Positions 4,902 through 64,000 of a stretch of 64,000 bases of DNA are shown in pieces. Position numbers and translations under genes: made by a program. This DNA comes from a virus. The stretch's first letter is position 1. Every line of letters starts with the position of its first letter. The stretch is from positions 1 to 64,000 of the IMG/VR virus record IMGVR_UViG_3300017963_000243. The stretch is one strand, 5' to 3'. The notes beneath the pieces are model-generated. The model worked only from the letters and a program-made list of their open reading frames with translations, had not been told where the DNA came from and did no database searches.

Positions 4902-4914
4902 GACTCAGCACTCC

Positions 4915-8530: not shown

Positions 8531-8563
8531 TGTCTCGAGATGTAGTAGACACTAGTGTGGGAT

Positions 8564-45871: not shown

Positions 45872-46411
45872 TCAACGCCAAGTATATGGCGATTCGTTGT
45901 TATATCCAAGAGGCAAATTGCGCAACTGTTCATCCGCTCGGGGTGAAACGCGTGTGACGTACTTGGCTGTGCGGCCTAACCCGCGCCCCAAACGTTCCCC
46001 TAAAGTTCCCGCAACCATCGAGCCAAGCATTCCAGTGGGTCCCCAAGCGGCTAATCCTAGGGCAGTTCCCCCTAGCAACCCTCCGATACGTTCCGCACGC
46101 TCACCAGGATCTCCTCGTACGATGTTGGCAGCCTCTATTGCGGGGAATCCATACAGTAACGCTTTGTTGAACGCCCCCGGTGCCTCGAATCCCTCCCGGA
46201 ATACGCTGCCCGGTTTGAGCGATTGCTTCATCCGCCACTCATGAGCGAAACGACGAGGTCGACCGATCATGAATCGCTTCACACCCTCTCGGGTGGGGAG
46301 CTTCTTAGCGAGGTACTTCCCTAATCGGGAAAGAGCCCTCGGCATAGCCGCCTCTTTAGTAAGGCCCATCTCGGAATACACGGCGTACTTACCAAGATCG
46401 TAGGGAGTCAT
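45872..46411 (-). CDS. Gly-Ala hydrophobic head-cluster protein (179 aa)
   Basis: Basic N-terminal half and Gly/Ala-rich hydrophobic segment (about residues 106-140). The ATG overlaps the stop of the beta-prime C-terminal gene (TGATG), so it is co-translated with the polymerase gene. Confidence 0.55.
   Translation of the reverse strand: MTPYDLGKYAVYSEMGLTKEAAMPRALSRLGKYLAKKLPTREGVKRFMIGRPRRFAHEWRMKQSLKPGSVFREGFEAPGAFNKALLYGFPAIEAANIVRGDPGERAERIGGLLGGTALGLAAWGPTGMLGSMVAGTLGERLGRGLGRTAKYVTRVSPRADEQLRNLPLGYNNESPYTWR
45881..45909 (-). promoter_or_regulatory. Promoter: TTGGAT-17-TATACT
   Basis: -35 TTGGAT at 45904-45909, 17-nt spacer, -10 TATACT at 45881-45886, minus strand, upstream of the 58-aa gene and inside the end of the 179-aa gene. 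Confidence 0.6.
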
Positions 46412-48210
46412 CAGTACCGCCCCTTCTCTCCTCGACCAAAGTCTACGCCATATGCGTACGCAGGAACAGGGTGTGTTCCGTGCAGATTCGAAATATCCCC
46501 AAAATGTGCCGCTTCTTGGAGTGTGCTTTTCAAGTTACGATGACCGAGGCGCGCAAGCCAATCCGGATGGAGTAGCGGGGCACGCGAAGCAGGTTTCATG
46601 ATGAACTCTACCTCTGGAGCACGCGGGGCAATCGCAATGGTCTTTAACCCCTCCTTCTTAAGGTAATGTAATACAGAGGGGGTGACTCTCTGCCCTACAG
46701 AGAAGTGAAAGTAGGGCTTTCCTAAAGTTTGTCCGAGAGTCTCGTTGACGGGGACCTCCTTAGTTCCCGAAGCCAAAGAAGAGCGCAACTTGTTATACGA
46801 AACCACGTCCCCCTTGATGAACTTATTAGTCGGGTCATCGAGAACGCGAACATGGTTCAGTTCGTTCTTTGCAAGCAACTCAAAATGTCGTTGATCCAGA
46901 GTCTTCCCCTGGTTCTCATACAAATCTCGCAGGGTATTTACGAGGTAAAGCCTCCCTGCGGCCAGCCCCTTGTGGCGCACGATTTCATCTGGCTTAGGGA
47001 TACCTTCGCTAAGGCGGTCGCCCCTTTCCACGGCGTCACCCTTCTTCACGACTACTCCCAAATTAGGAGCTACGAAGTGTTGTGTGTTACCTATGTGTAC
47101 GTAGGAGCCTCCCTGGGGAGCTTTCTCTATTTTTGATACCTTACCGTCAATGTCCGCTAGCGTAGCTTTATTCATGAACTGCTTGGGAGACTCGATGATC
47201 TGTCGGAATCCCGCAACACCCTGCAGGCGCATTCGGTCACCTTTGGCTGTGCGAACTCCGTGCTTGGCATCTAAAGCGAACTGACTGAGCGGTTCCCCCA
47301 TTGCAGAAGCGGAACGTACTCCTACATTAACCCCTAATTCGTGTACGTTTCCCTTTTCGTTCAGCCCCTGGCACTTTTGACAGACACCATCATCTGCCTC
47401 ACAAGTCATAGGGGAGCGCACCAACACCCTGGAAGCCCCACTCTTTCGAAGCTTCGTCTGCATATCGGAAGTAACTAAAGAGTTCCTGCGGAACTTTCCA
47501 GTATCCCGTGCCAGATAACGATCTACGATGTTCGGGTCGGTAACCTCCATCGTAATGCCGTTGTGCGTTCCGCAGTCCACTTCCGTTACCAGAGCATCCG
47601 CCATGTTGGCCATTAGTATCTTGGTCAACTCGCCAGGCTCCGAAACAGAGACGGTACTCTTGATAGTGTCTAGAATGGCCTCGTTACCTGCGACCCAATA
47701 GTCCGAAGGTTTGAGCCCCTCACTGTAAGACTTTCGAATTAGCCAAGGTTCAGTAAAACCGTAAGGGTCACGGGCCGCAGCAGGGGAGCCCACGATCTTC
47801 GAAAACTGCACAGGCTTTCCTCGTGCCCCGCTCCGAACTTGCTGAGTCATCGTCCCAGGGTGTGAGGTCGAAATTCCCACCATCTTCTCCTGGGCATCTT
47901 CTGCGATCCTGCTGCGTTGTTTATCCGTAGTAGCTTTGTCAAAAGCTGTGACGTAAGGTTTCAGGACTTTATTGCGATTCCTATAGTCAGGAGCGATGTC
48001 GTCTAGTCCAATAGAAAGGCCCTCCATCGTAGCTAACGCGTCACCTTCCCGCTTGAGGTCAGTGATCGTTTTGACGTAAGCTACGGGATCTTTATGCGCG
48101 AGCTCATTCATCTTCTTTTTGAGCTCACCCTTCCCCGACTCTCCTGACAGCCGATATTGCTCGGGAATATGCTGATTTAGCAGAAGCTGTCCTAGTGTTT
48201 GCGTCGACAT
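46411..48210 (-). CDS. RNA polymerase beta-prime, C-terminal half (599 aa)
   Basis: Carries the beta-prime C-terminal core: the Phe-Thr-Glu-Pro-Trp-Leu/Tyr-Ser-Glu-Gly-Leu-Lys-Pro-Ser-Asp-Tyr region of the bridge and trigger helices, an Asp-Cys-Gly-Thr motif, and a Cys cluster near residues 263-277 (Cys...Cys-Gln-Lys-Cys) followed by Gly-Val-Arg-Ser-Ala-Ser-Ala-Met-Gly-Glu-Pro, the counterpart of the bacterial trigger-loop neighbourhood. It holds no catalytic Asp triad, which lies in the fused beta/beta-prime gene. Must assemble with that protein. The start abuts the stop of the primase-phosphoesterase gene. Confidence 0.85.
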   Translation of the reverse strand: MSTQTLGQLLLNQHIPEQYRLSGESGKGELKKKMNELAHKDPVAYVKTITDLKREGDALATMEGLSIGLDDIAPDYRNRNKVLKPYVTAFDKATTDKQRSRIAEDAQEKMVGISTSHPGTMTQQVRSGARGKPVQFSKIVGSPAAARDPYGFTEPWLIRKSYSEGLKPSDYWVAGNEAILDTIKSTVSVSEPGELTKILMANMADALVTEVDCGTHNGITMEVTDPNIVDRYLARDTGKFRRNSLVTSDMQTKLRKSGASRVLVRSPMTCEADDGVCQKCQGLNEKGNVHELGVNVGVRSASAMGEPLSQFALDAKHGVRTAKGDRMRLQGVAGFRQIIESPKQFMNKATLADIDGKVSKIEKAPQGGSYVHIGNTQHFVAPNLGVVVKKGDAVERGDRLSEGIPKPDEIVRHKGLAAGRLYLVNTLRDLYENQGKTLDQRHFELLAKNELNHVRVLDDPTNKFIKGDVVSYNKLRSSLASGTKEVPVNETLGQTLGKPYFHFSVGQRVTPSVLHYLKKEGLKTIAIAPRAPEVEFIMKPASRAPLLHPDWLARLGHRNLKSTLQEAAHFGDISNLHGTHPVPAYAYGVDFGRGEKGRY

Positions 48211-49797
48211 CTAAAATCCCAACCCAATAGGCGAGGGTCCTGTGGCCGTCTCGTGCGAAATCTCCTCCTTGGGACCCCAAGAAGTCGGACGGTTAAGCCG
48301 GTCCTCTACCCGGTCATCCGCCTTGTTACCACCCTGTCGCTCTGGAACTCTCAAGGTGTTGAGGAGACCCGCCAACTCCGATGCGGGCATCCCCTCATCC
48401 GCGTTCTCCATAGGTTGTTGAGCCTCACTTGTACTGAGACGTTTTTGTTTTAAGCGTGACCGGATCTCCCGCGTAGCCCCCAACTTCTGGAGCACACGGT
48501 CAAACCCTTCCCAGAAAGCCGACATTTTTTGTAGGGCTGTCTTTCTCATATCCGTCACATTCCTCAATAACCACGCATCTTCCTTGGTTCGGAATAACAC
48601 GTAGTCCTCCTCAGTACCACCTACACGTCTCTTGAATTTTACCTTATCCGGAGAGGCGGCGGTAACCTGAACCGGTTCCTTATGCTTAATCTCAACAGAT
48701 CCCTTCCCATAGCCTTTCATGATGGGTTGCGGACCTGATGCTCCGAACCCTAGAGCGTAGTCGGCTGTATGGGTAGGGGTTTGAATCGCCAACACGTTCT
48801 CTCGAGTAGATGGTAATTTCGCCTTCGGGAGAGCCCAAGAATGGGCGTGCCCTGTCCAGGGATCGACGAGACGGAGATCGTAGTGCTTACCTGCACGCTC
48901 AGCCTTGTGTTCCTGTACAGCTAACATCCAAGACTTGGGTTGCCGGAATGTAGGAATTTTTTCTACGGGTTTCCCCGCGGGAATCCCCGGAGCGAACTCC
49001 TTAGGTTTCTTCTTAGTGCGGAGACGTGTGACGACTTCAAGAGGGTTGGCATGGGTTGCCGGGTCGAATCTCTTAAGCTCATTATCCCTTACAGGTACGG
49101 AGACCAGGCCCGTCTCACTATTCAATGAGTAGGGCGCTCGGATAGACCCCTGGTCGTGGAAAGTGGAAACGTCCAGACGGATTTGGTCTTTTTCCGGAGG
49201 CGTTACCGTGTAAGGATTCTTACGGCGAGCCAACCTCGACATGATGCGCTTGACCGTGCGTTCGAGCTTGTTGGTGTCGCGTTCAGCATCCAGCTGACCC
49301 CGAACATAAAACCCCGTACCGCCAGAGAAAGAGACATCAGTCTTATTGACTCCGGGGATCTTCTGGACTTCACGTTGAACCGCGCGGACCGCAGGCTTCA
49401 GCTCTTCGATCCCCACGTCCTTGCCCGCATCGATGTCCACCCACACCTGGTTCGTAGTCTTCCCGATGGTTGGGTGGAACTCCGTGTAACGTCTCGATGT
49501 GTACCAGTCGATGTCCTTCCCTGTAGGGATTCGGATAGGTTCATCCTTCTTACGGTAACGTCGAACAATAGGAGTATTCGGCTCCCGGTTCATAACCGTA
49601 AGCAGATCCTTGTCCTTAAGCTCACGGAAAAGGCGGCGACGTACCTCGGGAGTAGAATAGTAATCCAGCACATCCTTCTTGGTCATCTTGATGCCAGTAG
49701 AAGGACTATCGATCACGACCGCGTCCAGGTTCTCTACATCCTGGTACTTCCGGTTAGCCCAGACTGCGGCGCGTTGAGCTGGTGAGGAGTAGGGCAT
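48211..49797 (-). CDS. AEP primase fused to LigD-type 3'-phosphoesterase (528 aa)
   Basis: Residues about 95-260 form a LigD-type archaeo-eukaryotic primase/polymerase: motif I D121-x-D123, a Ser-Gly-Gly-x-Gly (158-162) and D209 in motif III followed by Ala-Pro-Tyr-Ser. Residues about 288-420 match a LigD 3'-phosphoesterase: Gln-Glu-His297, His305-Tyr-Asp307-Leu-Arg309, a His343 and Lys361-Gly-Tyr-Gly-x-Gly. No ligase domain. In LigD these activities fill and trim break ends with Ku. Here it could prime, repair or process ends at transcription or replication sites. It lies between the two polymerase genes, joined by TAATG and direct junctions. Confidence 0.85.
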   Translation of the reverse strand: MPYSSPAQRAAVWANRKYQDVENLDAVVIDSPSTGIKMTKKDVLDYYSTPEVRRRLFRELKDKDLLTVMNREPNTPIVRRYRKKDEPIRIPTGKDIDWYTSRRYTEFHPTIGKTTNQVWVDIDAGKDVGIEELKPAVRAVQREVQKIPGVNKTDVSFSGGTGFYVRGQLDAERDTNKLERTVKRIMSRLARRKNPYTVTPPEKDQIRLDVSTFHDQGSIRAPYSLNSETGLVSVPVRDNELKRFDPATHANPLEVVTRLRTKKKPKEFAPGIPAGKPVEKIPTFRQPKSWMLAVQEHKAERAGKHYDLRLVDPWTGHAHSWALPKAKLPSTRENVLAIQTPTHTADYALGFGASGPQPIMKGYGKGSVEIKHKEPVQVTAASPDKVKFKRRVGGTEEDYVLFRTKEDAWLLRNVTDMRKTALQKMSAFWEGFDRVLQKLGATREIRSRLKQKRLSTSEAQQPMENADEGMPASELAGLLNTLRVPERQGGNKADDRVEDRLNRPTSWGPKEEISHETATGPSPIGLGF

Positions 49798-52700
49798 TAA
49801 CCGATACTCACACGCGTCCCAAGACCAATCTCACCACGCTTATACGCAGCCATGGCGTCAGCCTTAGTCTTGAACTTCTTGGGCGTCTTATTCTTGTCAT
49901 CCACACGAGACGCGTGGTGGATACCCATGATCGCCTCATGCTGCGGAAACACCAGTAGGTCACTTTTGGACTTGTCCCCAAAAAGAAGATTCGAGAGGGT
50001 GATATTCTTCGCGTCCTCGACCGCTTTAGGACCTACAGGAACATGGAGCATCATTGTGTCCCCATCGTAGTCGGCGTTCATACCTTCTTCCACGAACGGG
50101 TTAACTCGGAGGGTGCGCCCAGGGACAGGTACCGGCTTAGCGGCAACAACATTGTAACGATGCAACGTTGGAGCACGATTCATGAGGACAGGACGCTCCT
50201 GGACTTCTCGTCGAAGTGCTTCTTCCGCGGCGGGGTGGCGCTTCTCTACCATCTGCTTAGCCTGAACAGCTGGGAAACCCTGTTGGACAAGTCGGCGAAT
50301 GAGAAACTTGTCGTACATCCCCCAAAGCATGTCCTTGGGAACTCCAACTTCGTCTACTCCAAGGGTGCTATCTGGAACGATAGTCCCGCGGCCAGCCACG
50401 TCTTGAGTTCGGGACATAAGCTTCGAGTGGAAGAAACCATGCTTGGGACCTCCAACACCGGAGATGTACGTCAAGAAACCCTTGTGGTTACGTGCTTTGG
50501 ACTTCGCCGTAGCGGGTTCGTCAGTCCCGTACACCGCGCCTACTGCTTGCTGTAAGGCTGGGCGCAATTTCTTTTCCTCGCCGGGAGGGGTGGGCGTCTT
50601 GGGGTTCTTAACCTCTTTCATCTGGTTGTTGATGTAGATGAGGTCTTGGTAGAGAGGGTTAGTATCCCCGTAGATGATCTGCGTTCCACCCTTACCGGGC
50701 ATGATCGGGCGCATCACCGGAGGTAGTACCGGAACTTTACTAACAACGTACGCTTTATCAGGTGTGAGACCCACGTTACGAAGAGCGTTGATGTACTTGA
50801 GCTGCTTAACCTCGTTGTCAAGCTGATCAGCCTTACGCCCCTTCATCTGTTTGCGTATGTCTTTCTCTTTCTGGTCAAGATCGAGCCTGCCCAACTCACG
50901 CTTGATGTGCGCTCCGCCCTTCTCCTGCAGCGTCTGGGAGAGTTGCGCGTTCGTCATACCGAGAAGGCGGCGAACTGGCTCTTTGAATACAGGATTTACA
51001 ATGGGCTCAGCCAAGTCAATATGTGACCATCGCGTCCCTCGAAGACCGCCAGTTACTCCCGGGTCGAACAGGCCCCCCGCTTCGGGACGTAGGTCTTTCG
51101 CACGAACGATCTTAGCGTCCTTCACCTCTCCCGAAGACATCTCCTTGACGTCGTCATCAGTAAGAGGTCCAAGAGCTACCCTACTACCGTCGCGGCGGAC
51201 ACGCACACCAGCTCCGGTGAGCATCCCGACGAACTTGTCATACGCGAAAGTCGATTTCGGTTCTGGAGGAGTCATGCCCAGCTGTACACCGCGCCAAAAC
51301 TCGTCATTCTTCTGACTCTTCACCGTCGCAACTTCCCGGAGGATGTTGCGGGCGTTGTGTCCGAGAAGAGCGTCGAACTCCATCTTGCCGATGGCCTTCG
51401 CACCTTGAACGCCGCCCTTAGTAGGCTGCAAGTTCATGTCGTAGGTGCCCGTGCTACGTGCGCTGTAGTTGTTATCAGTAGTCTTGAATAACTTATAGAG
51501 ATACTGGCGCCCTACGAAGACCTTCGGAATCTTCTTCCCCGAACGTGGGTCATAGACCGTTTCCTTGTCTTTGACTCCGTGTTTACGTAGTAAATCTTTT
51601 GCCCACTTTACGTTGTCTTCGTTTGTGAAGTTGTCCACTACGATAGGCTTACCGGTCTTCTCTACCACTTTACCTACAGCGGTCTCGATGATCTGACTTG
51701 GGTTGATACGCGACACCACCCCTGCCGACGTCATAAGAACATCGACGGGTTTGCCTGCCTCGTCCTGAATCATTTGGCCATCAGGAACGATCTCTGAAAT
51801 GACACCTTTGTTGCCGTAGCGACCCGCAATTTTGTCCCCGATCCCCGCAGGCTCTCGAGTCTTCACGGTGAGGGTGACGCGCTTCGGGGTCTTCACTACG
51901 TCAATAACCTCACCCTCGTGATCGTGGTCCCATCCCTGTGTGAACTCACGGTGAGGATGGGCCAATGACTTGTGAAGCTTCCCGAGAATGAGGTCATCAG
52001 GGGAGAGCTCCGTCTTGCGTACGCCTACGACTACAGGATCCCCGGGGAGCAGTTTAGTCCCCGGAGCGACTACACCGTCTGTGTCTATAGGCTTGTACTG
52101 GTCTTTGGTGTAGTTGTGTCCGTAGTAGGACTTGTGCTTGTTCGCGCTGAATGTCAGATCGGGATCTTTAGGGATGACAATCTTGTACATGCGCTCAGAC
52201 GTAAGTTTCTTCGCCGCGGCTTCACTTACGACTACTGCGTCATTGGAGTTTGCCCCGTAGTAGGGCATGAACGCTACGCTCATGTTCTTACCAAGCGCCA
52301 GGGTGCCGTTGCGTGTGAAGTTGGAGTCCCCTAATCGCTGCCCCGCTTTGACTTCGTCTCCAGGCTTAACCGAAAGGTCATGGTTCAAATAAGTCTTGGC
52401 CGCTAGCGGGAAATTTTTATCGTACGGAACCTTCACGAGAGCCGGACCTCGAGCGGCTGTTTTTTCATGAGGGCGGATGTAGATGAAATCATCATCCACC
52501 TTCTTAACAACTCCGCTAACGGGTGCGTAAGGGTTGATGATCTTACCGATCATGTTCTCAAACGACTTACCTGAGGGAGTAGCCACTTGTACAAATGGTT
52601 CCTCGCGGTCGACGAGCGACAGTGCTTGAACCTGCATCTTGGATCCCATCACCGCACGGTTACCCTGTGCGGACTCCAAGAATGGGATGAGATTTGTCGT

Positions 52701-54155
52701 CGGACTGTACATGCGGGATTGATGCGGGACCTGGTAGTTCACCTTCCGAGCAGGAACACGGCGAACAACACCGCGGTCTACCGCGTCCACAGTGCCCCGA
52801 ATTTCCTGATTCGGAAACGCCAACACTGATTCTTGAAGGTCCCCCGCTTTGACGTACTTTTCTCGCTTGGACTTTACGTCGTAAACTGGGACGTAGATAT
52901 CGCCATTCTCGTCCTTCTGCGCGGTCACTGCGGCACGAATGTCGATTCCAGCGCGCATGGACTCCGGAGTACGGATAGGGTCAAGGGCCCCCATCTGGGT
53001 CACGTGTGTCTGGCGTGCCTCAATAGGAATAGCCCGCTCCGTAGAAATGCCACCCTCACCCAAAGAAGTGACCCGCATCGCAGAGTCGATGAGGTCTACT
53101 GGGTTAGTCTGGTCCGGAATCGAAGACAGCGTAGTCGTCGATAGGAACTTGAGGAGGTCTTTCGTAAAGGGCCCGGAAGGGATCGCCTTCTTCAAGTTGG
53201 GCGTCGCTTCCATCTTAATAGATGCCTTCTTCGCCACCTCTCTGGCGTGGAGCTTGATCCTTTCTTTGAAGAAGTCGTCCACGGACATGATGGTCTTGAA
53301 CCCTAGGTTATCTTGGTCGTCGACCTCAGCCTGGTTATTAAAGATCTTGAGGACCTTAGTCGAGGCATCCAAGAGGCTTTGAGGCGACACATGGTCGTGC
53401 GGTTTACCAATGGTCTGTCGATTAACGTTAGGGTCCATTTTAGCGTTTCGATAACGCTCCAGAACCTCACGCATCTTAGTCACGGAATCCTGTTCCGACT
53501 TCTGCGCGTAAGTGGGGACCTCTTTCTTGTACAGTTTGTCGACATACTTGTCGGCCTTTGGCTCCAATACTTTCGCGTTAGCGTCGGCAAGCTTCGGACC
53601 CCAAGATTTAGAAATCTCATCGTGAGAAACGCCCGACTTCCTGAGAATAGGATAGAGCGGGATCTTAGTCGAACTGTACTCGAGTTGAGGCTGCCCCTTC
53701 GCAGGGTCCATACTGATACGGAAGTTCGCACCGCCCAACGTGTTGAATCCTGCTTCGAGAATACCGTTAGCCCGTTTACGCGAGTACACTCCCGGCTTAC
53801 GGCGAACCATGTTCGACACCGAATGCTCGTTGCCTCCGATGATGAATGTGTGCCGTGGGGTGAAATATGGCACTCTGACGAGGGTGAAGTTCTTCATCTC
53901 GTCAATGGTTTTTCCGTCCTTGTCCTTCATCCGCACTGTACCCTTCACGGACTCGAACAAGGAGTCGCCCGTGAGGATCGCTTTCTTCTGTTCAGAGGGG
54001 CTGTAGTCTTTCCCGACCACCTCAACATCATCAACTTCGATAGTCTTGTTCCGAGAAAGTATCGGAAAGGACTCCTTCAGCCCCTCAACAACCTTCTGGC
54101 GGATGAGTTCTCGGCGCTGATCAGGCCCGACCATTAGGGGAGTCAGATTAGGCAT
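49797..54155 (-). CDS. RNA polymerase beta subunit fused to N-terminal half of beta-prime (1452 aa)
   Basis: Beta part: fork region with Arg-Thr-Pro-Glu-Ser (about 390-405), Asn-Leu-Ile-Pro-Phe-Leu-Glu, Gly-Asp-Lys-Ile-Ala-Gly-Arg-Tyr-Gly-Asn-Lys-Gly (about 768-785) and the Ala-Arg-Ser-Thr-Gly C-terminal clamp near 920. Beta-prime part: Gly-Leu-Phe-Asp start (about 1020), Pro-Val-Leu-Pro-Pro, Pro-Val-Leu-Met-Asn-Arg-Ala-Pro-Thr-Leu-His-Arg (about 1320) and the catalytic Asn-Ala-Asp-Tyr-Asp-Gly-Asp at 1360-1366 (Tyr for the usual Phe). It ends soon after, so bridge and trigger elements are in the separate 599-aa gene. GGAGG and a TATACT promoter precede it. Confidence 0.92.
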   Translation of the reverse strand: MPNLTPLMVGPDQRRELIRQKVVEGLKESFPILSRNKTIEVDDVEVVGKDYSPSEQKKAILTGDSLFESVKGTVRMKDKDGKTIDEMKNFTLVRVPYFTPRHTFIIGGNEHSVSNMVRRKPGVYSRKRANGILEAGFNTLGGANFRISMDPAKGQPQLEYSSTKIPLYPILRKSGVSHDEISKSWGPKLADANAKVLEPKADKYVDKLYKKEVPTYAQKSEQDSVTKMREVLERYRNAKMDPNVNRQTIGKPHDHVSPQSLLDASTKVLKIFNNQAEVDDQDNLGFKTIMSVDDFFKERIKLHAREVAKKASIKMEATPNLKKAIPSGPFTKDLLKFLSTTTLSSIPDQTNPVDLIDSAMRVTSLGEGGISTERAIPIEARQTHVTQMGALDPIRTPESMRAGIDIRAAVTAQKDENGDIYVPVYDVKSKREKYVKAGDLQESVLAFPNQEIRGTVDAVDRGVVRRVPARKVNYQVPHQSRMYSPTTNLIPFLESAQGNRAVMGSKMQVQALSLVDREEPFVQVATPSGKSFENMIGKIINPYAPVSGVVKKVDDDFIYIRPHEKTAARGPALVKVPYDKNFPLAAKTYLNHDLSVKPGDEVKAGQRLGDSNFTRNGTLALGKNMSVAFMPYYGANSNDAVVVSEAAAKKLTSERMYKIVIPKDPDLTFSANKHKSYYGHNYTKDQYKPIDTDGVVAPGTKLLPGDPVVVGVRKTELSPDDLILGKLHKSLAHPHREFTQGWDHDHEGEVIDVVKTPKRVTLTVKTREPAGIGDKIAGRYGNKGVISEIVPDGQMIQDEAGKPVDVLMTSAGVVSRINPSQIIETAVGKVVEKTGKPIVVDNFTNEDNVKWAKDLLRKHGVKDKETVYDPRSGKKIPKVFVGRQYLYKLFKTTDNNYSARSTGTYDMNLQPTKGGVQGAKAIGKMEFDALLGHNARNILREVATVKSQKNDEFWRGVQLGMTPPEPKSTFAYDKFVGMLTGAGVRVRRDGSRVALGPLTDDDVKEMSSGEVKDAKIVRAKDLRPEAGGLFDPGVTGGLRGTRWSHIDLAEPIVNPVFKEPVRRLLGMTNAQLSQTLQEKGGAHIKRELGRLDLDQKEKDIRKQMKGRKADQLDNEVKQLKYINALRNVGLTPDKAYVVSKVPVLPPVMRPIMPGKGGTQIIYGDTNPLYQDLIYINNQMKEVKNPKTPTPPGEEKKLRPALQQAVGAVYGTDEPATAKSKARNHKGFLTYISGVGGPKHGFFHSKLMSRTQDVAGRGTIVPDSTLGVDEVGVPKDMLWGMYDKFLIRRLVQQGFPAVQAKQMVEKRHPAAEEALRREVQERPVLMNRAPTLHRYNVVAAKPVPVPGRTLRVNPFVEEGMNADYDGDTMMLHVPVGPKAVEDAKNITLSNLLFGDKSKSDLLVFPQHEAIMGIHHASRVDDKNKTPKKFKTKADAMAAYKRGEIGLGTRVSIG

Positions 54156-54381: not shown

Positions 54382-54417
54382 GAGACGTCACTCTTCCGAG
54401 GGTGGCGTCTCTTTTTT
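54382..54417 (+). terminator. Intrinsic terminator (plus strand)
   Basis: GAGACGTCAC ... GTGGCGTCTC (10 pairs with one G-U), followed by TTTTTT. It overlaps the last codons of the minus-strand 181-aa gene and ends the plus-strand mini-unit. Confidence 0.8.
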
Positions 54418-54933
54418 GGCGAAAGCTGCTTCAGGGTTGGGAGGATAGACAGATTTTTCCGCGGCTTCTTCCGCCTTGCGTTTTTCCTCTTCCAGGAACA
54501 CAGGGTCGGTCTCGAGCCACGCGAGTTCTACACAACGAGTACCGTCATGGAGTTGAAAGTGCTCTTCGAACTCCTTCACACCCTTACCTGACAGGAGCTT
54601 ATCCTTGACTTCTTTGTAGTCGACTACCTGCACGTGAGGACACGTGTAGTCTCCGACGTCGGGGAGCTCCACTTCATCCTTGGCAATCATGGCCTTGCAA
54701 CGATCACACTTACTCCAGGGCCTCCAAACCACGAATGTGCGCAAATAGCTCACCATGCGCACTTGACGGGCGGGTTGCAGCTTATCGATCTCTTTTGCTA
54801 CGAGAGGGATGTTGTCTTTGGGAGGTCCGAATAGAGTGGGGAGCTCCACTTCGGCAGACATCCGAGGTACTTCTCCTCGGGCACTTGACAAGAGATCTAC
54901 AAACGAATCTGGTTGTCCAGGTTGTTGCGCCAT
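54388..54933 (-). CDS. Acidic helical protein near portal (181 aa)
   Basis: Contains two cysteines in a Cys-Asp-Arg-Cys pair near residue 77-80, a Cys near 98 and a Lys/Glu-rich C terminus. Its ATG overlaps the stop of the portal gene (TAATG). May be a portal-associated or assembly protein; no family recognised. Confidence 0.6.
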   Translation of the reverse strand: MAQQPGQPDSFVDLLSSARGEVPRMSAEVELPTLFGPPKDNIPLVAKEIDKLQPARQVRMVSYLRTFVVWRPWSKCDRCKAMIAKDEVELPDVGDYTCPHVQVVDYKEVKDKLLSGKGVKEFEEHFQLHDGTRCVELAWLETDPVFLEEEKRKAEEAAEKSVYPPNPEAAFAKKETPPSEE

Positions 54934-56678
54934 TACAGCATCCCCCCTTGAGCCTCCTGGCCCTTACCGCGAGTCATCTGTTCCCACCTCTGAATCGCGA
55001 CAGAGTACAAGACAAAGTCCTCTTTCATGAGAGAATCCATGGCGCTCTTACGTCCCCCGTCATCCATGCTCATCCACTCTTGCACCAACATATCCGCCTG
55101 ACCGATGAGTTGCTGCTGGTCGTAACCCATCCCACCAGACTGCGCTTGTTGCGCCTCCATCTGTGCTTGTTGCGCCATATTGTTCTGGAGCTTTCGGATT
55201 TCAAGTTGGAGTTCAGTCTCCCTACGAACGTTGTCCAGCTCTTCCTGTCGGATACGGTCCTCTTCCTGGTCCAAATCGATACTGTTCTGCTCCGCCATGG
55301 TCTTGTCCGAAATGATCTTTCGACCCATCTGGATACCCGACTGGTAAAGCTGCATCGTGATTTGCTTCTGGTACTGATCATCGATCATCCGGAACGGTGC
55401 AAGTTCCACGGGGATCTTTTCGAACCCCAGGAACTTCGCACAACTGTCGTCAATCCACTGGAGACAATCATTAAGGTCATTAACGTGTGTCTCTAGCTGA
55501 TTTTCGATAAGTCGCAGCGTAGCTTCCATCCCGCTCTTGGTGAGGCCACCATACAGGAACTCAATGGGGATCCCGAGAGCGGCAACGATGTTCTTCTCTG
55601 CTTCTTGTACCTCACCTAACGTCAGAAGCGCGCGTCCCTGTCCCCCGATTTGCGTCATCCCAATTGGGATAGGCGCGAACATCATATGGAGGGGGTCTAC
55701 GCGCCACTGCTTGAAGTGATCTTTCAGTTTGGTCTTCCACTCTTCGAGGCTAATGGTCGTGACAGGGTCCGCGTTCCCACTTGACTGTGCGGGATGCACA
55801 ATCCGGAAGGGTGTCAGGTGGTCAAGAGCGATAGCCTCATTAGCTTTACGCAAAATTGCTGCGTAGTGGAACAACTGCAGTGTCGAGAGCAGCGGTGGAA
55901 GGCCCCATTGCGGGTTGATCCCGGCAGGTCCCCCCACTTTCATGTGGAAGATGTATCCTGGAGCAAACTTGAACTGCTTCTTCTTCTGGATCGCCTTCAA
56001 GAACCCTACGGGCATACTGTCGATAACGAACTTGTGGCCCTTCTGTACGCTATCCACCATCGAACGTGGAATGGTGTGGTAGTACACCGACGCCCCTGTC
56101 AGGGGGTTGAAGTCCACGTCCATGTGCTTGGGGTCCCATCGAATAAAATTGATTCTCCGACTTACCGCGAGTTTGCGGTCCTCGATCTCTCTCTCGGTGG
56201 CGATAACCTCGTTGTCACATGCGGGACACCTATAAGTGAACCGCAGTGACGAGTAGCTGTATTTATAGTCCAAGTTCTGGATGTTGGTGAGTGTCTTGCA
56301 CTTAGGACACTTAAGATACCGGATGAAGGGTTGGTACATGGAGAGAAAGGCATTTCCGTACACGTACTTATCCAGGGTCATCTGAATGAGTATCTCCCGG
56401 ACGTGAAGAACCTTCTCTAACAAATTTTTGTGTCGAAGTTTGAGCGCCTCATTCTCGGTGTCGTAAAGGAGTTCTGTGATGGGATACTCACCAAACTTCC
56501 GCAACGCCGAGTAGATGTGAGCCGAGTTAAAAAACAAGTACTCGCACCACTTAAAGAGTTCTTTGAGCCTTCGCGGACTGTAAACCTGGCTATAGGTGTG
56601 GTAAGGATTGGTGTGGGGGGCGGTATCTCGCGTCCCACTGAGCATGTAGGGGTCAGATACGTTGAAATCATTCGTCAT
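54933..56678 (-). CDS. Portal protein (581 aa)
   Basis: Forms the dodecameric DNA gateway of the capsid. The protein has a zinc-ribbon insert (Cys-Pro-Lys-Cys near 124-127 and Cys-Pro-Ala-Cys near 150-153), a Gly-Gln-Gly-Arg-Ala-Leu-Leu-Thr-Leu stretch, Phe-Leu-Tyr-Gly-Gly-Leu-Thr (near 375) and a long C-terminal coiled coil rich in Gln. Length and position fit portal proteins of large myoviruses. The zinc ribbon is unusual for a portal. Confidence 0.8.
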   Translation of the reverse strand: MTNDFNVSDPYMLSGTRDTAPHTNPYHTYSQVYSPRRLKELFKWCEYLFFNSAHIYSALRKFGEYPITELLYDTENEALKLRHKNLLEKVLHVREILIQMTLDKYVYGNAFLSMYQPFIRYLKCPKCKTLTNIQNLDYKYSYSSLRFTYRCPACDNEVIATEREIEDRKLAVSRRINFIRWDPKHMDVDFNPLTGASVYYHTIPRSMVDSVQKGHKFVIDSMPVGFLKAIQKKKQFKFAPGYIFHMKVGGPAGINPQWGLPPLLSTLQLFHYAAILRKANEAIALDHLTPFRIVHPAQSSGNADPVTTISLEEWKTKLKDHFKQWRVDPLHMMFAPIPIGMTQIGGQGRALLTLGEVQEAEKNIVAALGIPIEFLYGGLTKSGMEATLRLIENQLETHVNDLNDCLQWIDDSCAKFLGFEKIPVELAPFRMIDDQYQKQITMQLYQSGIQMGRKIISDKTMAEQNSIDLDQEEDRIRQEELDNVRRETELQLEIRKLQNNMAQQAQMEAQQAQSGGMGYDQQQLIGQADMLVQEWMSMDDGGRKSAMDSLMKEDFVLYSVAIQRWEQMTRGKGQEAQGGML

Positions 56679-56738: not shown

Positions 56739-58793
56739 ATGGAAGTCGGACTAACGGCTATTAACGAGACCCCTGTACTCACCGTAAATGACCCCACATC
56801 AAGTGGAAGTCGCGTATTCGGTGCCTCCATGGATCGAGGCAAGACACACTGGCGTTTTCCGGCATTCCCTCCATTTGTCGAGAGAGTACTACACGACCTC
56901 GGTAAAGTCTACGCGTCATTAACCTTTAGCCCACAAGCGGACACGTGGCTCTCAACGCTAAAAAAAGAGGAGGAGTGGGTAGACTTTGCAAGTAACACAA
57001 AACTCCCGGGGCCCTTTGGAAACTACGAACATCAGAACATCGGCCTAGGGAAACTCCTTCACAATTATCGCTACATTCTGCAGTGGGAGATGGGGACAGG
57101 GAAGACAAAGCCCATCATCGACATGACGTACCTCCTCGGGGAAAAGGTCCTGGTCTTATGCCCTCTAGTAGCGGCCAAGAACTGGGCTAAAGAGGTCAAG
57201 AAACACAGTGGAGGGGCCCTAAAACCTCTAGCAATGCTTGGTACACGGGGCAAAAAATTGCAGCTTCTCAACGATGCTGAGGACGCTGACGTTTTTATCA
57301 CCACGTACGATACGGCACGTTTACACGGAGTCCCTTCTGTATCCCCAAAAGTCGTCAAGGCTGTCATGGACTCCCGAGGATACTATTCAATAACGGAGGC
57401 GTTAAAACGTGCCCTGATGAACATCAACGATCCTGCAACGCAACTCAGATTCGCAGAGGAGTGGATCAGAGGGCGCTCTGTTCGCGAGATCGGACAGGAA
57501 TCTCGAGAGTTGGCCAAAGGCACGCTACAGTGGATAACTCAACTACCGTGCACCACCGTCGTAGCAGACGAGTCTCACCGTATTAAACACATCCGTAGCC
57601 AGCGTACGAAGGTGTGTATGCGGTTAGCTTCTAAATTTCCACGCCGATACTTACTTAGCGGAACCCTGAGCTTGGGAGATCCTCGGGATCTCTACCCACA
57701 GCTCAAGTTCCTAGCCCCGTACGCTCTCTCAGAGGACTATCGGGCGTTCTGTGACAAGTACGTAGTCTACTCCCAATGGAATAAACACGTAGTTGTGGGG
57801 TATAAGAAATTAGACTCATTGAACAAAGTGGTTACGGGAATTTCCGACAGGCGTGAACTAGAGGAGTGTGTGGACCTCCCTGAGCGCACAACTGAAACGC
57901 TTTATTTTGACCTCACCCGTGAACAGCTCCGAGACTACAACGGAGCCATCGAAAACATGCTCATTGACCGCCCGAACGCCGAGCCCCTCGAACTTCAGAA
58001 CGGTGCCATTCGCCTTAATAAGCTTTTGCAAATATGTAGCGGCTTCGTCTACTCCCCGAAGGCTACTGAGAGTCCGTGTGACGAGTGTTCGGACCTGCGT
58101 AGGTGTGTCGTTAACGGAATACATCCCGGGTCCCCCCGCTGCACCCAAGTAGCAGAGGCACCTGAGAGGGAGACACTCCGATACTCGAAGAATCCTAAGC
58201 TAGAGCGCATAAGCGAATTCCTCGACGATCTCTTGGATAATAAGGTGACTAAGGTCATCATATGGGCCAATTTCGAAGCGGAATTGGATGACCTCGAAGA
58301 GCTTATCTCCAAAAAGCAGTTGGGGTACGTACGCGTCGATGGGAGCAACTCCAACAAGATGTCCGAGATGGAGGAGGTCTTTCAGAACGACGCGAACTGT
58401 CGAGTCTTTTTGGGTCAGATCAAAACAGGTATCGCAGTTACGCTTACTGCTGCCAAGTACACGGTTTACTATTCCCGAAGTTGGTCGCTAGAAGACTGGT
58501 TGCAATCGCGTAATCGAAATTTTCGAATCGGACAGACGAAGAAGACTGTTATCTATCATTTGTGCGGGAAGAAAACCGTAGAGGCTCAGCAAATAGCCGC
58601 ACTGAAGTCGAAGCAAGATATCTCTTCTTCTCTTACGAAACACATCAACTGTATGGTGTGCGCGCAGTACCCCACCTGTGCCAAGGACAAAGTAGATCCG
58701 TGGACGGACGGCTGCATCTTAGGGCGCGAGGTTAAAAAGAAGATCACCCGGGTAGGTGTAATCCACCTAGGAGAGGACACGGAGGAAGCGTAA
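56739..58793 (+). CDS. SNF2-family DNA helicase with twin zinc knuckles (684 aa)
   Basis: Superfamily 2 ATPase: Walker A Gly-Thr-Gly-Lys-Thr at 119-123, a Asp-Glu-Ser-His Walker B near 276-279, Leu-Leu-Ser-Gly-Thr motif III and an Arg-Asn-Arg-Asn-Phe-Arg-Ile-Gly-Gln motif VI. Two cysteine clusters have identical spacing C-x2-C-x5-C-x11-C, one in the second half of the motor and one at the C terminus. Such proteins remodel DNA or displace proteins in replication and repair. It heads a plus-strand operon. Confidence 0.88.
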   Translation: MEVGLTAINETPVLTVNDPTSSGSRVFGASMDRGKTHWRFPAFPPFVERVLHDLGKVYASLTFSPQADTWLSTLKKEEEWVDFASNTKLPGPFGNYEHQNIGLGKLLHNYRYILQWEMGTGKTKPIIDMTYLLGEKVLVLCPLVAAKNWAKEVKKHSGGALKPLAMLGTRGKKLQLLNDAEDADVFITTYDTARLHGVPSVSPKVVKAVMDSRGYYSITEALKRALMNINDPATQLRFAEEWIRGRSVREIGQESRELAKGTLQWITQLPCTTVVADESHRIKHIRSQRTKVCMRLASKFPRRYLLSGTLSLGDPRDLYPQLKFLAPYALSEDYRAFCDKYVVYSQWNKHVVVGYKKLDSLNKVVTGISDRRELEECVDLPERTTETLYFDLTREQLRDYNGAIENMLIDRPNAEPLELQNGAIRLNKLLQICSGFVYSPKATESPCDECSDLRRCVVNGIHPGSPRCTQVAEAPERETLRYSKNPKLERISEFLDDLLDNKVTKVIIWANFEAELDDLEELISKKQLGYVRVDGSNSNKMSEMEEVFQNDANCRVFLGQIKTGIAVTLTAAKYTVYYSRSWSLEDWLQSRNRNFRIGQTKKTVIYHLCGKKTVEAQQIAALKSKQDISSSLTKHINCMVCAQYPTCAKDKVDPWTDGCILGREVKKKITRVGVIHLGEDTEEA

Positions 58794-59185
58794 TGGACAT
58801 CGTACTACGAGAACACGACGTTAAAAGAATGATAGGAGAAGCCCTGGGAGTAAAGATCCCTCCTGACGATTTGATGGTCGAGCAGGACCCCCTGAGTGTG
58901 ACTATCGTAAATGCGGAAAAATACCTCTACAAAAAGAAACCAGTTTTACGAGGTAAACCTGACGAAGCACCGTCGCAACCTCCAGATGCCTCTGAAGACT
59001 CCGAGCCCCCGCCAAGCGCGGACGCCTCACCCCTCATGTCCATGGACGACTTGAAACGGGAGAGCGCGGGCCTGGCAGCGGCTCCTCCACAAACGGGGAA
59101 TTCTGAAAACTCTCCCCGAGCGCTGGGAGCCAACGAACGCACTGAAGTGCCGCCCCCAACCGAACACGGCAAGGAGAAATTGTAA
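58793..59185 (+). CDS. Pro/Ser-rich hypothetical protein (130 aa)
   Basis: A short N-terminal helix followed by a Pro/Ser/Glu/Asp-rich disordered region. It overlaps the helicase stop (TAATG) and adjoins the nuclease gene directly, so it is part of the same operon. Function unknown. Confidence 0.6.
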   Translation: MDIVLREHDVKRMIGEALGVKIPPDDLMVEQDPLSVTIVNAEKYLYKKKPVLRGKPDEAPSQPPDASEDSEPPPSADASPLMSMDDLKRESAGLAAAPPQTGNSENSPRALGANERTEVPPPTEHGKEKL

Positions 59186-60043
59186 ATGCCCGAACTCAAT
59201 ATACATGGAAAGATCGTGGAGGTTCCCGCGGGATTCGGAGATTCCGGACTCCCTAATAAGGAATACTTCTCACACTCCCAGTTCTCAATGTATCGGAGGT
59301 GCCCCCGGCAGTTCGAATACCGCTACGTACTCGGTATGCGCCAACCGCCGGGTATCGCCATGACACAGGGGACGGTCATCCATGCCGGAGCAGAGGCCAC
59401 ACACCGCGCCACTATCGAAAACGGTAGGCCCCTATCACTAGAGCACGCAGAGGCTATAGTGTCGGACAAGTTCGATTCTGTGAAGGAGTACATCGAAGAC
59501 TGGGGAGACGCGAAGCCAGGAAAGGTCAAAGAACTGACGCTTCACCACTTCCGAGTCTACCATAAACAGTCGATACCCCTGGTACGCCCCAAAGCGGTGG
59601 AGGAGCCGTTTGCGGTTAAAGTCGGGACAGTACCCATCGTCGGCTTTATCGACCTCATTGACGAGGTGATGTTGGATCGCGAAAATGATACCCTGGCCAA
59701 AGGGGAAGGTCCGCTAGTCACGGAAGTCGTCACGGACTTGAAGTTCACGGGTCGTAAATGGCAGGCGGCTAAGTTGAGACATGACACCCAGCTGACTCTT
59801 TATGCGCACGTTAAGGGGATTCCACGTGTTCGCATCGACTTTCTGCTTGACCAGAAGAGCGGCACTCGTTACGTTCAGGAAAGATCGTTAAGGACACCGC
59901 GGGATGCTAAGAACTTCGAAGAAGACCTGGAAGAATGTGTGGACCTCATCAAGAAAGGCATCTTCCCGCGTTGTGACCCGACGACCTGGGCCTGTACTCC
60001 GCGCTTCTGCGGCTACTACGAAAGATGTCGAGGACCCCAATGA
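59186..60043 (+). CDS. PD-(D/E)XK nuclease, Cas4/RecB-type (285 aa)
   Basis: Contains Cys-Pro-Arg-Gln near residue 40, a Gly-Thr-Val-Ile-His at about 65-70, the catalytic Val-Thr-Asp-Leu-Lys-Phe (Asp and Lys near residues 186-188), a Gln-Leu-Thr-Leu-Tyr motif and a C-terminal Cys-Thr-Pro-Arg-Phe-Cys-x-Tyr-x-x-x-Cys, the pattern of an iron-sulphur or zinc cluster in Cas4/AddB-type exonucleases. It pairs with the helicase in this operon for end processing or recombination. Confidence 0.85.
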   Translation: MPELNIHGKIVEVPAGFGDSGLPNKEYFSHSQFSMYRRCPRQFEYRYVLGMRQPPGIAMTQGTVIHAGAEATHRATIENGRPLSLEHAEAIVSDKFDSVKEYIEDWGDAKPGKVKELTLHHFRVYHKQSIPLVRPKAVEEPFAVKVGTVPIVGFIDLIDEVMLDRENDTLAKGEGPLVTEVVTDLKFTGRKWQAAKLRHDTQLTLYAHVKGIPRVRIDFLLDQKSGTRYVQERSLRTPRDAKNFEEDLEECVDLIKKGIFPRCDPTTWACTPRFCGYYERCRGPQ

Positions 60044-61230
60044 CTGAGGAACTGAAACTCCGCGACTTCACCGAACTGTCTCCCAAAGAGTTTTGGAAAC
60101 TCGTTGATGCCGAAGCAGGAGCTGCGCAGACAAAAGTACAGGAGATCTTTGAGAAGGCTAACCGCCAAGTACTCAACCAGAAAGAAGCGATTGAGGGGTT
60201 GGATGCGCTTTTCATTGATTCGCACCGGCGAATCAAGGAGCACAGCTCTGCGCTCGCTAAACACTACCCTACCAAACAGCTGACCAAAAATAAGCTAGAG
60301 GACTTGGAGCATATGTGGTGGGTCGACCACTACACCTCGGGGGTCTCTCGGTGGTCGACTCTCAGCTGGTTCAGCTCCAAGAAGAATGCGAATAAGAAAG
60401 GGAAGATGCGGTATAACGGAGCTTCGACGCATTTTGTCCTCGGCTACGAGGGCTACCCTTTCTATATTATCCCGCTCATGCACGGAGCGTGGCATGAACC
60501 GAAGCGTAACAGAGACTCCATCAGCATCGAGATGGTAAACTGCGGCGCTATCAAGGAACATAAGGGTAAGTACTGCTACTGGCCCAAGGGATACACGCAA
60601 GAAATCCCGGCACAACTCGTAGCCGAACTTCCTCCGACGAGGCTCCCTTTCAATTTCCGAGGAGCTAAGATCCTCCAGCCGTTTACGGCGTCCCAGATAA
60701 AGTACAATGTTCTCCTCAAGCGCATTATCCTCGCAGCTTTACCCGGTAAATTGGACCGTTCACGCTTCAGTCAGCACCAGGAATGGCGCAGTACCAAGCT
60801 GGACATGGGACCTCTGTGGCCTTTCAAGGACGTCAACGATGCTGCGCATGATGCATTCCCGATCTCGCAGTACTCCTTCCTCTCCAAATTTGAATTAGCA
60901 GTCAAAGACGGCACGATCACCGAAGCTGAAGCTGCCGAACTGGAGATGGAAGGACACAGCCCTGAGTATGGAGACGAGACTCCTACTCACGATGATGACC
61001 TGGACGACGACAACGAAAGCGTAATGTCGATCTCTGAGGTCCAAGAATATCTTAACCTTTACGGATTCCGTGTGGAAGTCGATGGTAAGTTCGGTCCCCA
61101 GACCAAGAAAGCTGTCGGCAAATTCCAGACCGTCTATAACATGAAGTATCCGAGTACGGACGCCCTGGCTGTCGACGGCATACCAGGCCCCCGTACGTGT
61201 GCAGCTCTCAAACGGTATGAGAAGGAGTGA
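60040..61230 (+). CDS. Endolysin: N-acetylmuramoyl-L-alanine amidase with peptidoglycan-binding domain (396 aa)
   Basis: An N-terminal helical part (about 1-85) leads into a PGRP/amidase_2-type domain: Trp-Val-Asp-His-Tyr-Thr (zinc ligand His), His-Phe-Val, Ala-Trp-His-Glu-Pro, and Ser-Ile-Glu-Met-Val-Asn-Cys-Gly. The last 70 residues form a PG_binding_1 domain (Val-Asp-Gly-Lys-Phe-Gly-Pro-Gln-Thr). It cuts the stem peptide from muramic acid at lysis. Its ATG overlaps the nuclease stop (ATGA). No signal peptide, so a holin is needed. Confidence 0.88.
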   Translation: MTEELKLRDFTELSPKEFWKLVDAEAGAAQTKVQEIFEKANRQVLNQKEAIEGLDALFIDSHRRIKEHSSALAKHYPTKQLTKNKLEDLEHMWWVDHYTSGVSRWSTLSWFSSKKNANKKGKMRYNGASTHFVLGYEGYPFYIIPLMHGAWHEPKRNRDSISIEMVNCGAIKEHKGKYCYWPKGYTQEIPAQLVAELPPTRLPFNFRGAKILQPFTASQIKYNVLLKRIILAALPGKLDRSRFSQHQEWRSTKLDMGPLWPFKDVNDAAHDAFPISQYSFLSKFELAVKDGTITEAEAAELEMEGHSPEYGDETPTHDDDLDDDNESVMSISEVQEYLNLYGFRVEVDGKFGPQTKKAVGKFQTVYNMKYPSTDALAVDGIPGPRTCAALKRYEKE

Positions 61231-61235
61231 CCGCC

Positions 61236-61580
61236 ATGGAACTGAACGAAGTCTGCAGCAGGTGTGGGAAGTCCGTTAAGGTTCCCGCTGACCCCGAGTT
61301 GATGAAACTCAAGATCGAGGAGGAAGCCTCTGTCAATGAGATCATCGAGAAGTTTCGGCAATTCGCCGATAACCTCGAGGACCCTCTCCCCGAAATCATC
61401 ACGCTCGTCCGTGTGCAAGACGACAACGGAGAGTACCGCTTCGATGTCAAGGCGCTCACCAAGCTGTGCGGCCCTGATGAGACCAAGAAGCGGAACAAGA
61501 GCGGCTGCTTGAAGCGCGTCCAGGCTCTGGTAGATGACATCTACCGACAGGCTAAGGGCCCTTCTAAGAGTAAGGAATGA
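61236..61580 (+). CDS. Small protein with N-terminal Cys pair (114 aa)
   Basis: Starts with Cys-Ser-Arg-Cys-Gly near residue 7-11 (zinc ribbon half), with two more cysteines further on and a basic C terminus. GGAGTGACCGCC precedes the ATG; a similar leader precedes the ParB gene. Confidence 0.6.
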   Translation: MELNEVCSRCGKSVKVPADPELMKLKIEEEASVNEIIEKFRQFADNLEDPLPEIITLVRVQDDNGEYRFDVKALTKLCGPDETKKRNKSGCLKRVQALVDDIYRQAKGPSKSKE

Positions 61581-61929: not shown

Positions 61930-61955
61930 TCTCTAGCTCCACGGAGTGACCGCCA

Positions 61956-63034: not shown

Positions 63035-64000
63035 TTATTCCGCGCAGAGATCGCTCAAATCATTCACTGACAATCTTCGGAACTCTAACTTCACCTCTTG
63101 CAGTAGTCGCTGCTTGATCTGCCGGACACGTTCCGGAGTCAGGTCGGCGAGTACTGCAAGTTGGTGAAGACTCTTCGAAGAAGTTCGGCGCGTTTTTTCA
63201 GGGATGTTGTAGTACTGGAGTAAGATAAACTTGTCACGCGCACGCATTGGGATCTTGGAAAGCACGTCGCGAATCATCTTTGCGACAGTAGCGTCAATGA
63301 CTTCTTCCTCCATATCGGAGTCACTCGTAAGAGGTATCGGACGACCCTGGGCGTTCTCGAGAGGGACCATGATGTTGAGAGCTTCCTGGTCAACCACTGG
63401 CAGGAAGTCGTGAGCCTCACCTGAAGGGCATGGCGGTAGGCTTCTAGGGGTAATATCGCCATCTACTCGATAGTCGCAATGGCGGCACATAAACGACGTG
63501 GTACGTTGCGCTCTGCGGTGCGACTTATGTTTGTGGGAGGGGACGTGCACAATACTGCTACTTTGGATCTCATCAAACATCTCTTTTCGGATCCAATGTG
63601 CAGCGTAGGTCAAGAAGCGCGTCCCCTGAGTGATATCGAACTTGTCGATTGCAATGAGCAGCCCGACGTTTCCCGCTGACGTGAGTTGTTGTATTCGGTA
63701 CGGGTCTTTAGTAATGGACTTCGCCATGCGTACAACGAATCGCAAATTACCGTTTACAATACGTTCACGAGCATCGAGATCTCGCCCTCTACCGCACCTC
63801 AAGCAATAAGGTGGAGCATAGTAAGTTTCAAATTTGTCCCCGCACGCGGTACAAAGAGTTAAGTAGTATTCCGTGGCGTTTTCGTCACCCTCTACGGGAG
63901 CGTTGGCGCCACACTCAGTGCAGTAAGGTCTGCGAACTTTGTGAGGGATTAGCTCGTCGCAATGAGGGCACGTGTTGTAACGCTTAAGAAGCGCGCGCTC
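63035..64000 (-). CDS. Sigma-70-family factor with zinc ribbons (partial, 5' end outside window)
   Basis: Stop at 63035; the frame stays open to the window edge. Visible residues 11-30 have C-x2-C ... C-x2-C, and 50-69 a second C-x2-C ... C-x2-C, giving two N-terminal zinc ribbons. Next comes sigma region 2 (Asn-Gly-Asn-Leu-Arg-Phe-Val-Val-Arg-Met-Ala, Gly-Asn-Val-Gly-Leu, Trp-Ile-Arg-Lys-Glu). A further Cys cluster follows, then region 4 with an HTH (Thr-Pro-Glu-Arg-Val-Arg-Gln-Ile-Lys). It would direct the phage or host polymerase to phage promoters. Confidence 0.85.
   Translation of the reverse strand, partial: ERALLKRYNTCPHCDELIPHKVRRPYCTECGANAPVEGDENATEYYLTLCTACGDKFETYYAPPYCLRCGRGRDLDARERIVNGNLRFVVRMAKSITKDPYRIQQLTSAGNVGLLIAIDKFDITQGTRFLTYAAHWIRKEMFDEIQSSSIVHVPSHKHKSHRRAQRTTSFMCRHCDYRVDGDITPRSLPPCPSGEAHDFLPVVDQEALNIMVPLENAQGRPIPLTSDSDMEEEVIDATVAKMIRDVLSKIPMRARDKFILLQYYNIPEKTRRTSSKSLHQLAVLADLTPERVRQIKQRLLQEVKLEFRRLSVNDLSDLCAE

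Follow-up and report, generated by a model that had tools for sequence, protein, structure and literature searches.

A fused and split phage RNA polymerase with a LigD-type gene in the break of beta-prime

In the phiKZ-like phages, as exemplified by AR9, the beta-prime subunit of RNA polymerase (RNAP) is cut after the catalytic barrel and the enzyme is made up of several pieces, according to the available text of PMC7598289. Beta-prime is also encoded in two genes, RpoC1 and RpoC2, in cyanobacteria, whose sequences were compared here, and in plastids, and there too it is cut after the catalytic barrel. The crAss-like phages have the beta and beta-prime parts fused (available text of PMC7481178 and PMC10770324). 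The study that described the mReC, RNAP-encoding Caudovirales from IMG/VR and other metagenomes whose beta and beta-prime are recognisably of cellular type, names such a fusion only for the crAss-like phages in its available text (Weinheimer and Aylward 2020, PMC7481178). In the current analysis we have examined an RNAP locus in a stretch of viral DNA of 64,000 nucleotides (the window), positions 1 to 64,000 of the 78,570-base IMG/VR record IMGVR_UViG_3300017963_000243. Here beta is fused to the N-terminal part of beta-prime, the remainder of beta-prime is a separate gene, and a LigD-type gene with primase-polymerase (AEP) and 3'-phosphoesterase (PE) domains is situated in the break. This arrangement is real and well supported as a feature of a lineage, and is not peculiar to this phage. 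No description of this fused and split RNAP, or of its AEP-PE gene, was recognised in searches of the open-access literature.

The three genes are arranged head to tail in one direction on the minus strand. RpBC (49797..54155), of 1452 amino acids, comprises beta and the N-terminal part of beta-prime, as assigned from Pfam and from an alignment with the proteins of Salmonella phage Arash and Vibrio phage D69. The AEP-PE gene (48211..49797), of 528 amino acids, has been assigned from Pfam and an AlphaFold model. RpC (46411..48210), of 599 amino acids, is the C-terminal part of beta-prime, in agreement with the alignment of a three-row RpC profile to the beta-prime chain 6oy6_D (residues 902-1396). 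RpBC overlaps the AEP-PE gene by one nucleotide (TAATG), and the AEP-PE stop abuts the RpC start (TAG directly followed by ATG). A first-pass annotation of this DNA had read the 1452-residue gene as beta and beta-prime through the NADYDGD loop, the 599-residue gene as the rest of beta-prime, and the 528-residue gene as a LigD-type protein joined to both by touching junctions, and it had proposed RpoB and RpoC profile searches as a check. The searches bear out this reading, with matches over the Pfam cut-offs where it had placed them: Rpb2_3, Rpb2_6, Rpb1_1 and Rpb1_2 in RpBC, Rpb1_5 in RpC, and LigD_Prim-Pol and LigD_N in the gap protein.

The catalytic motifs are conserved in the two polymerase genes. 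The GDK...GNKG motif of beta (RpBC residues 773-784; 51804..51839, minus strand) has residues invariant in the alignment with Arash and D69, as is the ADYDGD of the NADYDGD metal-binding loop of beta-prime (residues 1360-1366; 50058..50078, minus strand). RpC carries a Cys cluster, a putative zinc site, and a stretch that is named the trigger-loop region from the alignment (residues 293-318, with a conserved H317; 47257..47334, minus strand). With the catalytic domains of beta and beta-prime, the DxDGD loop and this region, the enzyme is a DNA-dependent RNAP of the bacterial two-barrel type. No multisubunit-type RNAP other than RpBC and RpC was detected in the record of this phage. Each of the 17 related records has one beta gene, the window's own record being a 78.6-kb fragment. 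A protein with sigma-70 region 2 (Pfam Sigma70_r2; 63035..63802, minus strand) is a candidate initiation factor, and this family is present in 13 of the 17 related records.

By comparison, the cut is between 'VSIG' and 'TLGQLLLN', 86 residues past the metal-binding loop. In phiKZ-like phages and cyanobacteria, too, the cut in beta-prime comes after the catalytic barrel (available text of PMC7598289), though the cyanobacterial site is a different one. Position 1515 of the 1520 in the RpBC profile aligns with residue 553 of the 624-residue cyanobacterial gamma chain and position 29 of the RpC profile with residue 13 of the cyanobacterial beta-prime, so that the cyanobacterial cut is about 65-70 residues later; the cyanobacterial beta is, moreover, not fused. 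The phiKZ-like RNAPs resemble the window in having beta-prime cut after the catalytic barrel, but their beta is also cut and there are two RNAPs per genome, whereas in the window's record, itself a fragment, beta is uncut, fused and encoded once. The C-terminal piece of AR9 appeared by eye to start at the same residue as RpC; the profile alignment covers RpC residues 124-325 against AR9 residues 203-401, and a common start is not claimed. The crAss-like RNAP, fused like that of the window, is not recognised by cellular hidden Markov models according to the available text of PMC7481178, whereas the window's RNAP is recognised and lies in two genes. For the mReC, which are set beside the window by description only, no such fusion or split is described in the available text of PMC7481178. 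The Gp23-type capsid family (PF07068) was matched in none of 13 records, and the controls were without a match too.

The same fusion and cut have been identified in named phages. When 50,697 phage records were searched for RpBC, RpC and AEP-PE, at least 80% of RpBC was found in one place in four of them, Salmonella phage Arash and Vibrio phages D69, D181 and D148, which are also the four in which RpC was found to at least 80%. Their RpBC is 35-36% identical to that of the window, and the RNAP overall 30-38%. With the same junction, and with the split sequences forming one clade in two trees (SH-aLRT 96 and 99, see below), the window's RNAP belongs to one split-fusion lineage with Arash and D69. 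A portal gene is situated upstream of the RNAP, as in the window, in those examined (Arash, D69 and D181). These phages differ from the window in the genes of the gap and in having no match to AEP-PE; the AEP-PE protein found none in the 50,697 records, and a Pfam search did not find LigD_N in the Arash or D69 records. In Arash the portal is followed by a small gene and RpBC, after which nine genes with annotations of other kinds precede RpC; the gap of D69 holds two small genes. D181 and D148, unlike the window, have a further insert in RpBC. The Arash record names the host strain ATCC 14028 and the two Vibrio phage records examined give no host; no paper on Arash was found in the open-access literature.

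These genomes bear on two claims of the first-pass annotation. It had taken the layout to be without parallel, which does not hold for the fusion with the split: Arash and the three Vibrio phages share both, and differ in their gap genes. It had also named an assembly error as what would undo the split. Such an error was considered and ruled out, because the same cut recurs in the four named phage genomes and because three other contigs (L006, L007 and L013) carry an RpC of 100% identity (rounded).

A search of IMG/VR with the RpC alignment yielded 64 loci. RpBC and RpC are separate open reading frames (ORFs) in 57 of them and one ORF in three (L065, L066 and L069); the remaining four (L052, L055, L073 and L074) have no RpBC in the locus and could not be assessed. 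A further search with the three unsplit proteins gave at least 600 stretches, at least 489 of them confirmed, and 80 loci among the matches listed were analysed, L104 being the contig of L066 and L106 that of L065. In 74 of these 80 a single stop-to-stop frame of 2,010-2,571 amino acids holds both beta and beta-prime; in four (L145, L157, L176 and L183) the stretch ends before the match does, and in two (L140 and L171) in-frame stops break it up. The unsplit form is thus common among the relatives; like the named phages, it had escaped the first-pass annotation. In L140 (8001-14093) the match to the fused RNAP crosses several in-frame stops, pointing to recoded stop codons in this phage. The portal of the window has a homologue in 56 of these 80 loci. 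In L066 the unsplit junction, 'VVQIGG-YETTLGREKLKSVIP', can be aligned by eye with the 'VSIG' and stop at the end of the window's RpBC and with 'MSTQTLGQLLLNQHIP' at the start of RpC.

The relationships of these enzymes were examined in two trees, neither of which has cyanobacterial, phiKZ-like or mReC rows. In a tree of the RpC region with 67 rows, the 61 split rows form one clade (SH-aLRT 96), within which the AEP-PE rows form a clade of 25 that includes L026 (100) and the rows with a PE gene on the same strand another (99). In a second tree of 81 rows (49 split, 29 fused and 3 outgroup) the split rows are again one clade (99), and split versus fused amounts to one change. The split rows being a single clade, the cut of beta-prime in the fused enzyme happened once. 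The cut is derived whether or not the split clade nests within the fused rows, because the bacterial-type outgroup has an unsplit beta-prime. A second cut inside beta-prime has been found in six relatives (L059-L062, L067 and L068), and is probably also present in L050 and L053, where the stretch ends nearby. A reversal of the fusion in some relatives had been considered and was dropped, the second cut being at about Arash residues 1108-1147, inside beta-prime and not at the border of beta and beta-prime.

The break in beta-prime is a gene slot that holds AEP-PE, other PE genes or neither. The three-gene order, for which a search of other large phages had been suggested, was found with AEP and PE between the RNAP parts in 25 of the 57 split loci. 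A PE gene without AEP is present on the same strand in six (L036, L037, L039, L041, L047 and L064) and on the opposite strand in another six (L050, L053, L059, L060, L067 and L068), and no PE gene was found in the gap by tblastn in 20, L026 included. Four of the gap genes are Pfam-supported PE-ligase fusions: both matches are over the cut-off in L047, the ligase match of L036 (25.5 bits) is under its cut-off of 26.2, and the PE matches of L037 (30.6 bits) and L064 (29.8 bits) are under 31.1. For L050 and L053 the PE matches likewise fall short of the Pfam cut-off, and no Pfam family was found in the gap protein of L039. The Pfam PE model, LigD_N, matches 8 of 17 whole records and misses L010, which has AEP-PE by tblastn. 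A PE domain fused to an SNF2-type helicase is encoded in L059 (4382-6313, minus strand), on the strand opposite to the RNAP genes. L095 (5364-8459) has a single 1031-residue protein in the RNAP gap, comprising AEP, a P-loop region and PE. L026 retains the split RNAP, with AEP and PE missing by tblastn. By eye, its AEP-PE is down to a C-terminal tail (a 141-residue ORF) before RpC (4275-9992), and several of its unrelated neighbouring ORFs share an ANQIADEAL-type peptide that looks like a sorting tag.

The AEP-PE protein has an AEP domain (Pfam stretch at residues 79-265; 49003..49563, minus strand; conserved D121, D123 and D209) and a PE domain with conserved residues (Pfam stretch at residues 295-370; 48688..48915, minus strand). 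The match to LigD_Prim-Pol scores 46.5 bits (cut-off 27.4), and that to LigD_N 31.9 bits, barely over its cut-off of 31.1. An AlphaFold model from 20 sequences has a mean pLDDT of 79.3 (42.6 with 5 sequences), with ten-residue means of 83-95 over residues 21-260 and 281-410 and low values over the last 110 residues. The model matches the polymerase domain of Mycobacterium tuberculosis LigD (best E-value 6.2e-13, TM 0.70 by target) and the archaeal LigD-type phosphoesterase 3p4h (E-value 7.3e-8, TM 0.84). A sequence profile compared with solved structures matches for the PE part and found none for the AEP part. All 20 aligned relatives have H108, D121, D123 and D209 of AEP and Q295, H297, H305, D307, R309, H343 and Y347 of PE. 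From the order of the motifs, H108 is presumably the counterpart of LigD His111. In LigD, His111 sets the preference for ribonucleotides, and the manganese-binding triad of PE is His42, His48 and Asp50 (available text of PMC8656161); H297, H305 and D307 of AEP-PE align with this triad in 20 of 20. The folds of AEP and PE and the active-site residues of PE are therefore shared with bacterial LigD and archaeal LigD-type proteins. Unlike LigD, AEP-PE has no Pfam match to a ligase domain, and so it is a LigD-type protein outside LigD proper.

Mobile elements have entered the RNAP genes of the relatives. In-frame inserts are found in RpBC at about residue 777 (GDK) in eight relatives (L009, L010, L011, L014, L020, L022, L029 and L037) and near NADYDGD in L008, L026, L027, L030 and L041; from their position, frame and end residues they are putative inteins. 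The intein-like insert at NADYDGD in L008 (5851-7410) has a LAGLIDADG domain by Pfam, and that at GDK in L009 (5496-6476) gave no Pfam match. Two group I introns were identified by Rfam in the stretch of Vibrio phage D181 (L005), one in RpBC (5718-5925) and one just before the portal match (9515-9795). An ORF in the RpBC gap of D181 is annotated as a homing endonuclease and has I-HmuI-like NUMOD and NUMOD3 domains over the cut-off and HNH under it. At the break in beta-prime, no intein-like or intron-like sequence was seen.

These observations make it probable that a fused RNAP was cut once, that its two halves reassemble, and that AEP-PE is a separate end-healing enzyme expressed along with the RNAP. 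The ancestor would have been a fused beta and beta-prime polypeptide of roughly 2,000-2,190 amino acids, with a single cut at the 'VSIG' junction. RpBC brings beta and the first part of beta-prime with the catalytic loop, and RpC the Cys cluster, the trigger-loop region and the C-terminal part; the two would have to fold together for activity into one RNAP, for which the phage sigma-like protein probably supplies promoter recognition. The break would then have become a slot for other genes, taken in the window's branch by a free-standing LigD-type protein without a ligase domain. With its PE active-site residues intact, this protein probably heals phage DNA at the 3' ends, where it would take off terminal ribonucleotides or phosphates; its AEP part probably serves as a short gap-filling polymerase, and the touching frames would lead to the three proteins being made in step.

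Several results weigh against this reading. Both trees were built by a quick method, have no support values other than SH-aLRT and gave long-branch warnings. An AU test does not reject the 29 fused rows as one clade (p 0.718), the log-likelihood of that arrangement being 11.68 higher, and so the tree alone does not place the split rows inside the fused ones. On the side of AEP-PE, residue 164 in motif II (SGGxG) varies, with His in 10 of the 20 rows and Tyr in the other 10, the window among these, and the AEP activity may therefore be altered or lost. The ligase family PF01068, the one searched, was not found in the AEP-PE records G000, G001, G003 and G004, and is over the cut-off in four of nine other records, Arash and D69 among them. 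Ku, the partner in Ku-LigD end joining, was found in none of the 13 records, several of which are fragments, while a Bacillus subtilis control was matched; the full LigD pathway is thus not seen, the window's record G000 being itself a fragment. Since L026 keeps its RNAP without AEP and PE, AEP-PE is not essential for the split enzyme.

A closer bond between the two is also conceivable, with RNAP and AEP-PE as a single functional unit that might travel in the virion and be injected with the DNA, for early transcription and healing of the incoming DNA ends. Three groups in the tree have genes with a PE domain in the gap, joined with AEP, ligase or SNF2 helicase domains. A separate search of IMG/VR with the AEP-PE alignment, which shares many contigs with the RpC-based survey, gave 32 loci; 27 of these adjoin RNAP genes, including all 25 with AEP, and the other five (L096-L100) are PE loci in which no RNAP was matched. 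This search favours RNAP-adjacent loci because its query came from genes beside RNAP. The RNAP and AEP-PE genes also lie within the stretch from portal to head protease, a position that fits a virion RNAP, and AEP-PE shares a short motif with the neighbouring 179-residue protein, though one picked after the examples had been seen. Against such a unit, the 20 gaps with no PE gene found and the six with the gene on the opposite strand have to be set, as well as LigD_N in 8 of the 17 related records, Arash and D69 not among them, and a PE, AEP or ligase match nearby in only 7 of the 80 unsplit loci among the matches listed. The unit is on balance unlikely, and we are still more doubtful that the cut has been kept as a slot for end-healing modules (AEP-PE, PE-ligase and PE-helicase) working with the RNAP as an injected complex of transcription and end repair. 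The functional link of RNAP to end repair is, from these genomic patterns, suggestive only.

The gap may instead be a neutral landing site opened by an intron, an intein or a homing gene, with AEP-PE as a passenger, which is a serious possibility although we would put it somewhat below even, and which is compatible with the cut and reassembly of the RNAP proposed above. The loss of a mobile element is a plausible cause of the cut because introns and intein-like inserts occur in the same genes (D181, the GDK and NADYDGD sites, LAGLIDADG in L008), and intron mobility has been proposed for the split RNAP genes of phiKZ-like phages (available text of PMC7598289). In Arash, D69 and L026 the gap is taken up by other genes. 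Neither an intein-like nor an intron-like sequence was seen at the break, however; AEP-PE is kept across the clade of 25 rows, L026 being the only one without it, and the recurrence of PE genes in other groups is beyond what a random passenger predicts. It is very improbable that the split came with the RNAP from an already split donor, a cyanobacterium or a phiKZ-like phage. Beta-prime is cut in the same general region in both, and a cyanobacterial source has been proposed for the phiKZ-like RNAPs (available text of PMC7598289), but the window's RNAP has unsplit relatives, and inheritance of the cut from cyanobacteria was rejected on these relatives and on the different cut site. The chance that the halves are rejoined by intron splicing or by a split intein, or that the break is an artefact of assembly, is practically negligible. 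Introns and intein-like inserts do occur elsewhere in these genes, but a complete gene lies between the two junctions, nothing intein-like is seen by eye at either end, a search of the window with Rfam gave no intron at the gathering score, and named phages have the same break; splicing and a split intein were rejected accordingly.

With one cut of a fused RNAP as the favoured course, an order of events can be proposed for phage RNAP, namely fusion, one cut in beta-prime and a second cut in some branches, with all the stages extant, and the origin of split polymerases becomes testable on real intermediates. The assembly of the halves can be tested at the bench because Salmonella phage Arash carries the same split. 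The RNAP locus also appears to be repeatedly paired with end-healing domains of the LigD type, in a setting that gave no match to Ku.

The RNAP genes of the window lie between the portal and head-protease genes. Upstream of them, a homologue of the portal protein (54933..56678, minus strand) matches gp204 of Arash, annotated as portal protein. Between portal and RpBC is a 181-residue protein (54388..54933, minus strand), kept in close relatives and with a zinc-ribbon match under the Pfam cut-off. Directly downstream of RpC, a 179-residue protein (45872..46411, minus strand) is in place in close relatives, as seen from their comparison. It has in common with AEP-PE, past the PE domain of the latter, a motif like YxxGYxAALxKLG; a pattern built from examples was matched 20 times in 499 ORFs, taken from 32 loci and from the window, and 1-6 times in five shuffles.

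On the opposite strand, beside the portal, the window encodes SNF2 helicase, PD-(D/E)XK nuclease, amidase and ParB-like genes (56739-63032, plus strand). Eight tRNA genes are present in the window, together with a tmRNA gene (14547-14932, minus strand) whose predicted tag peptide is atypical and unusually long.

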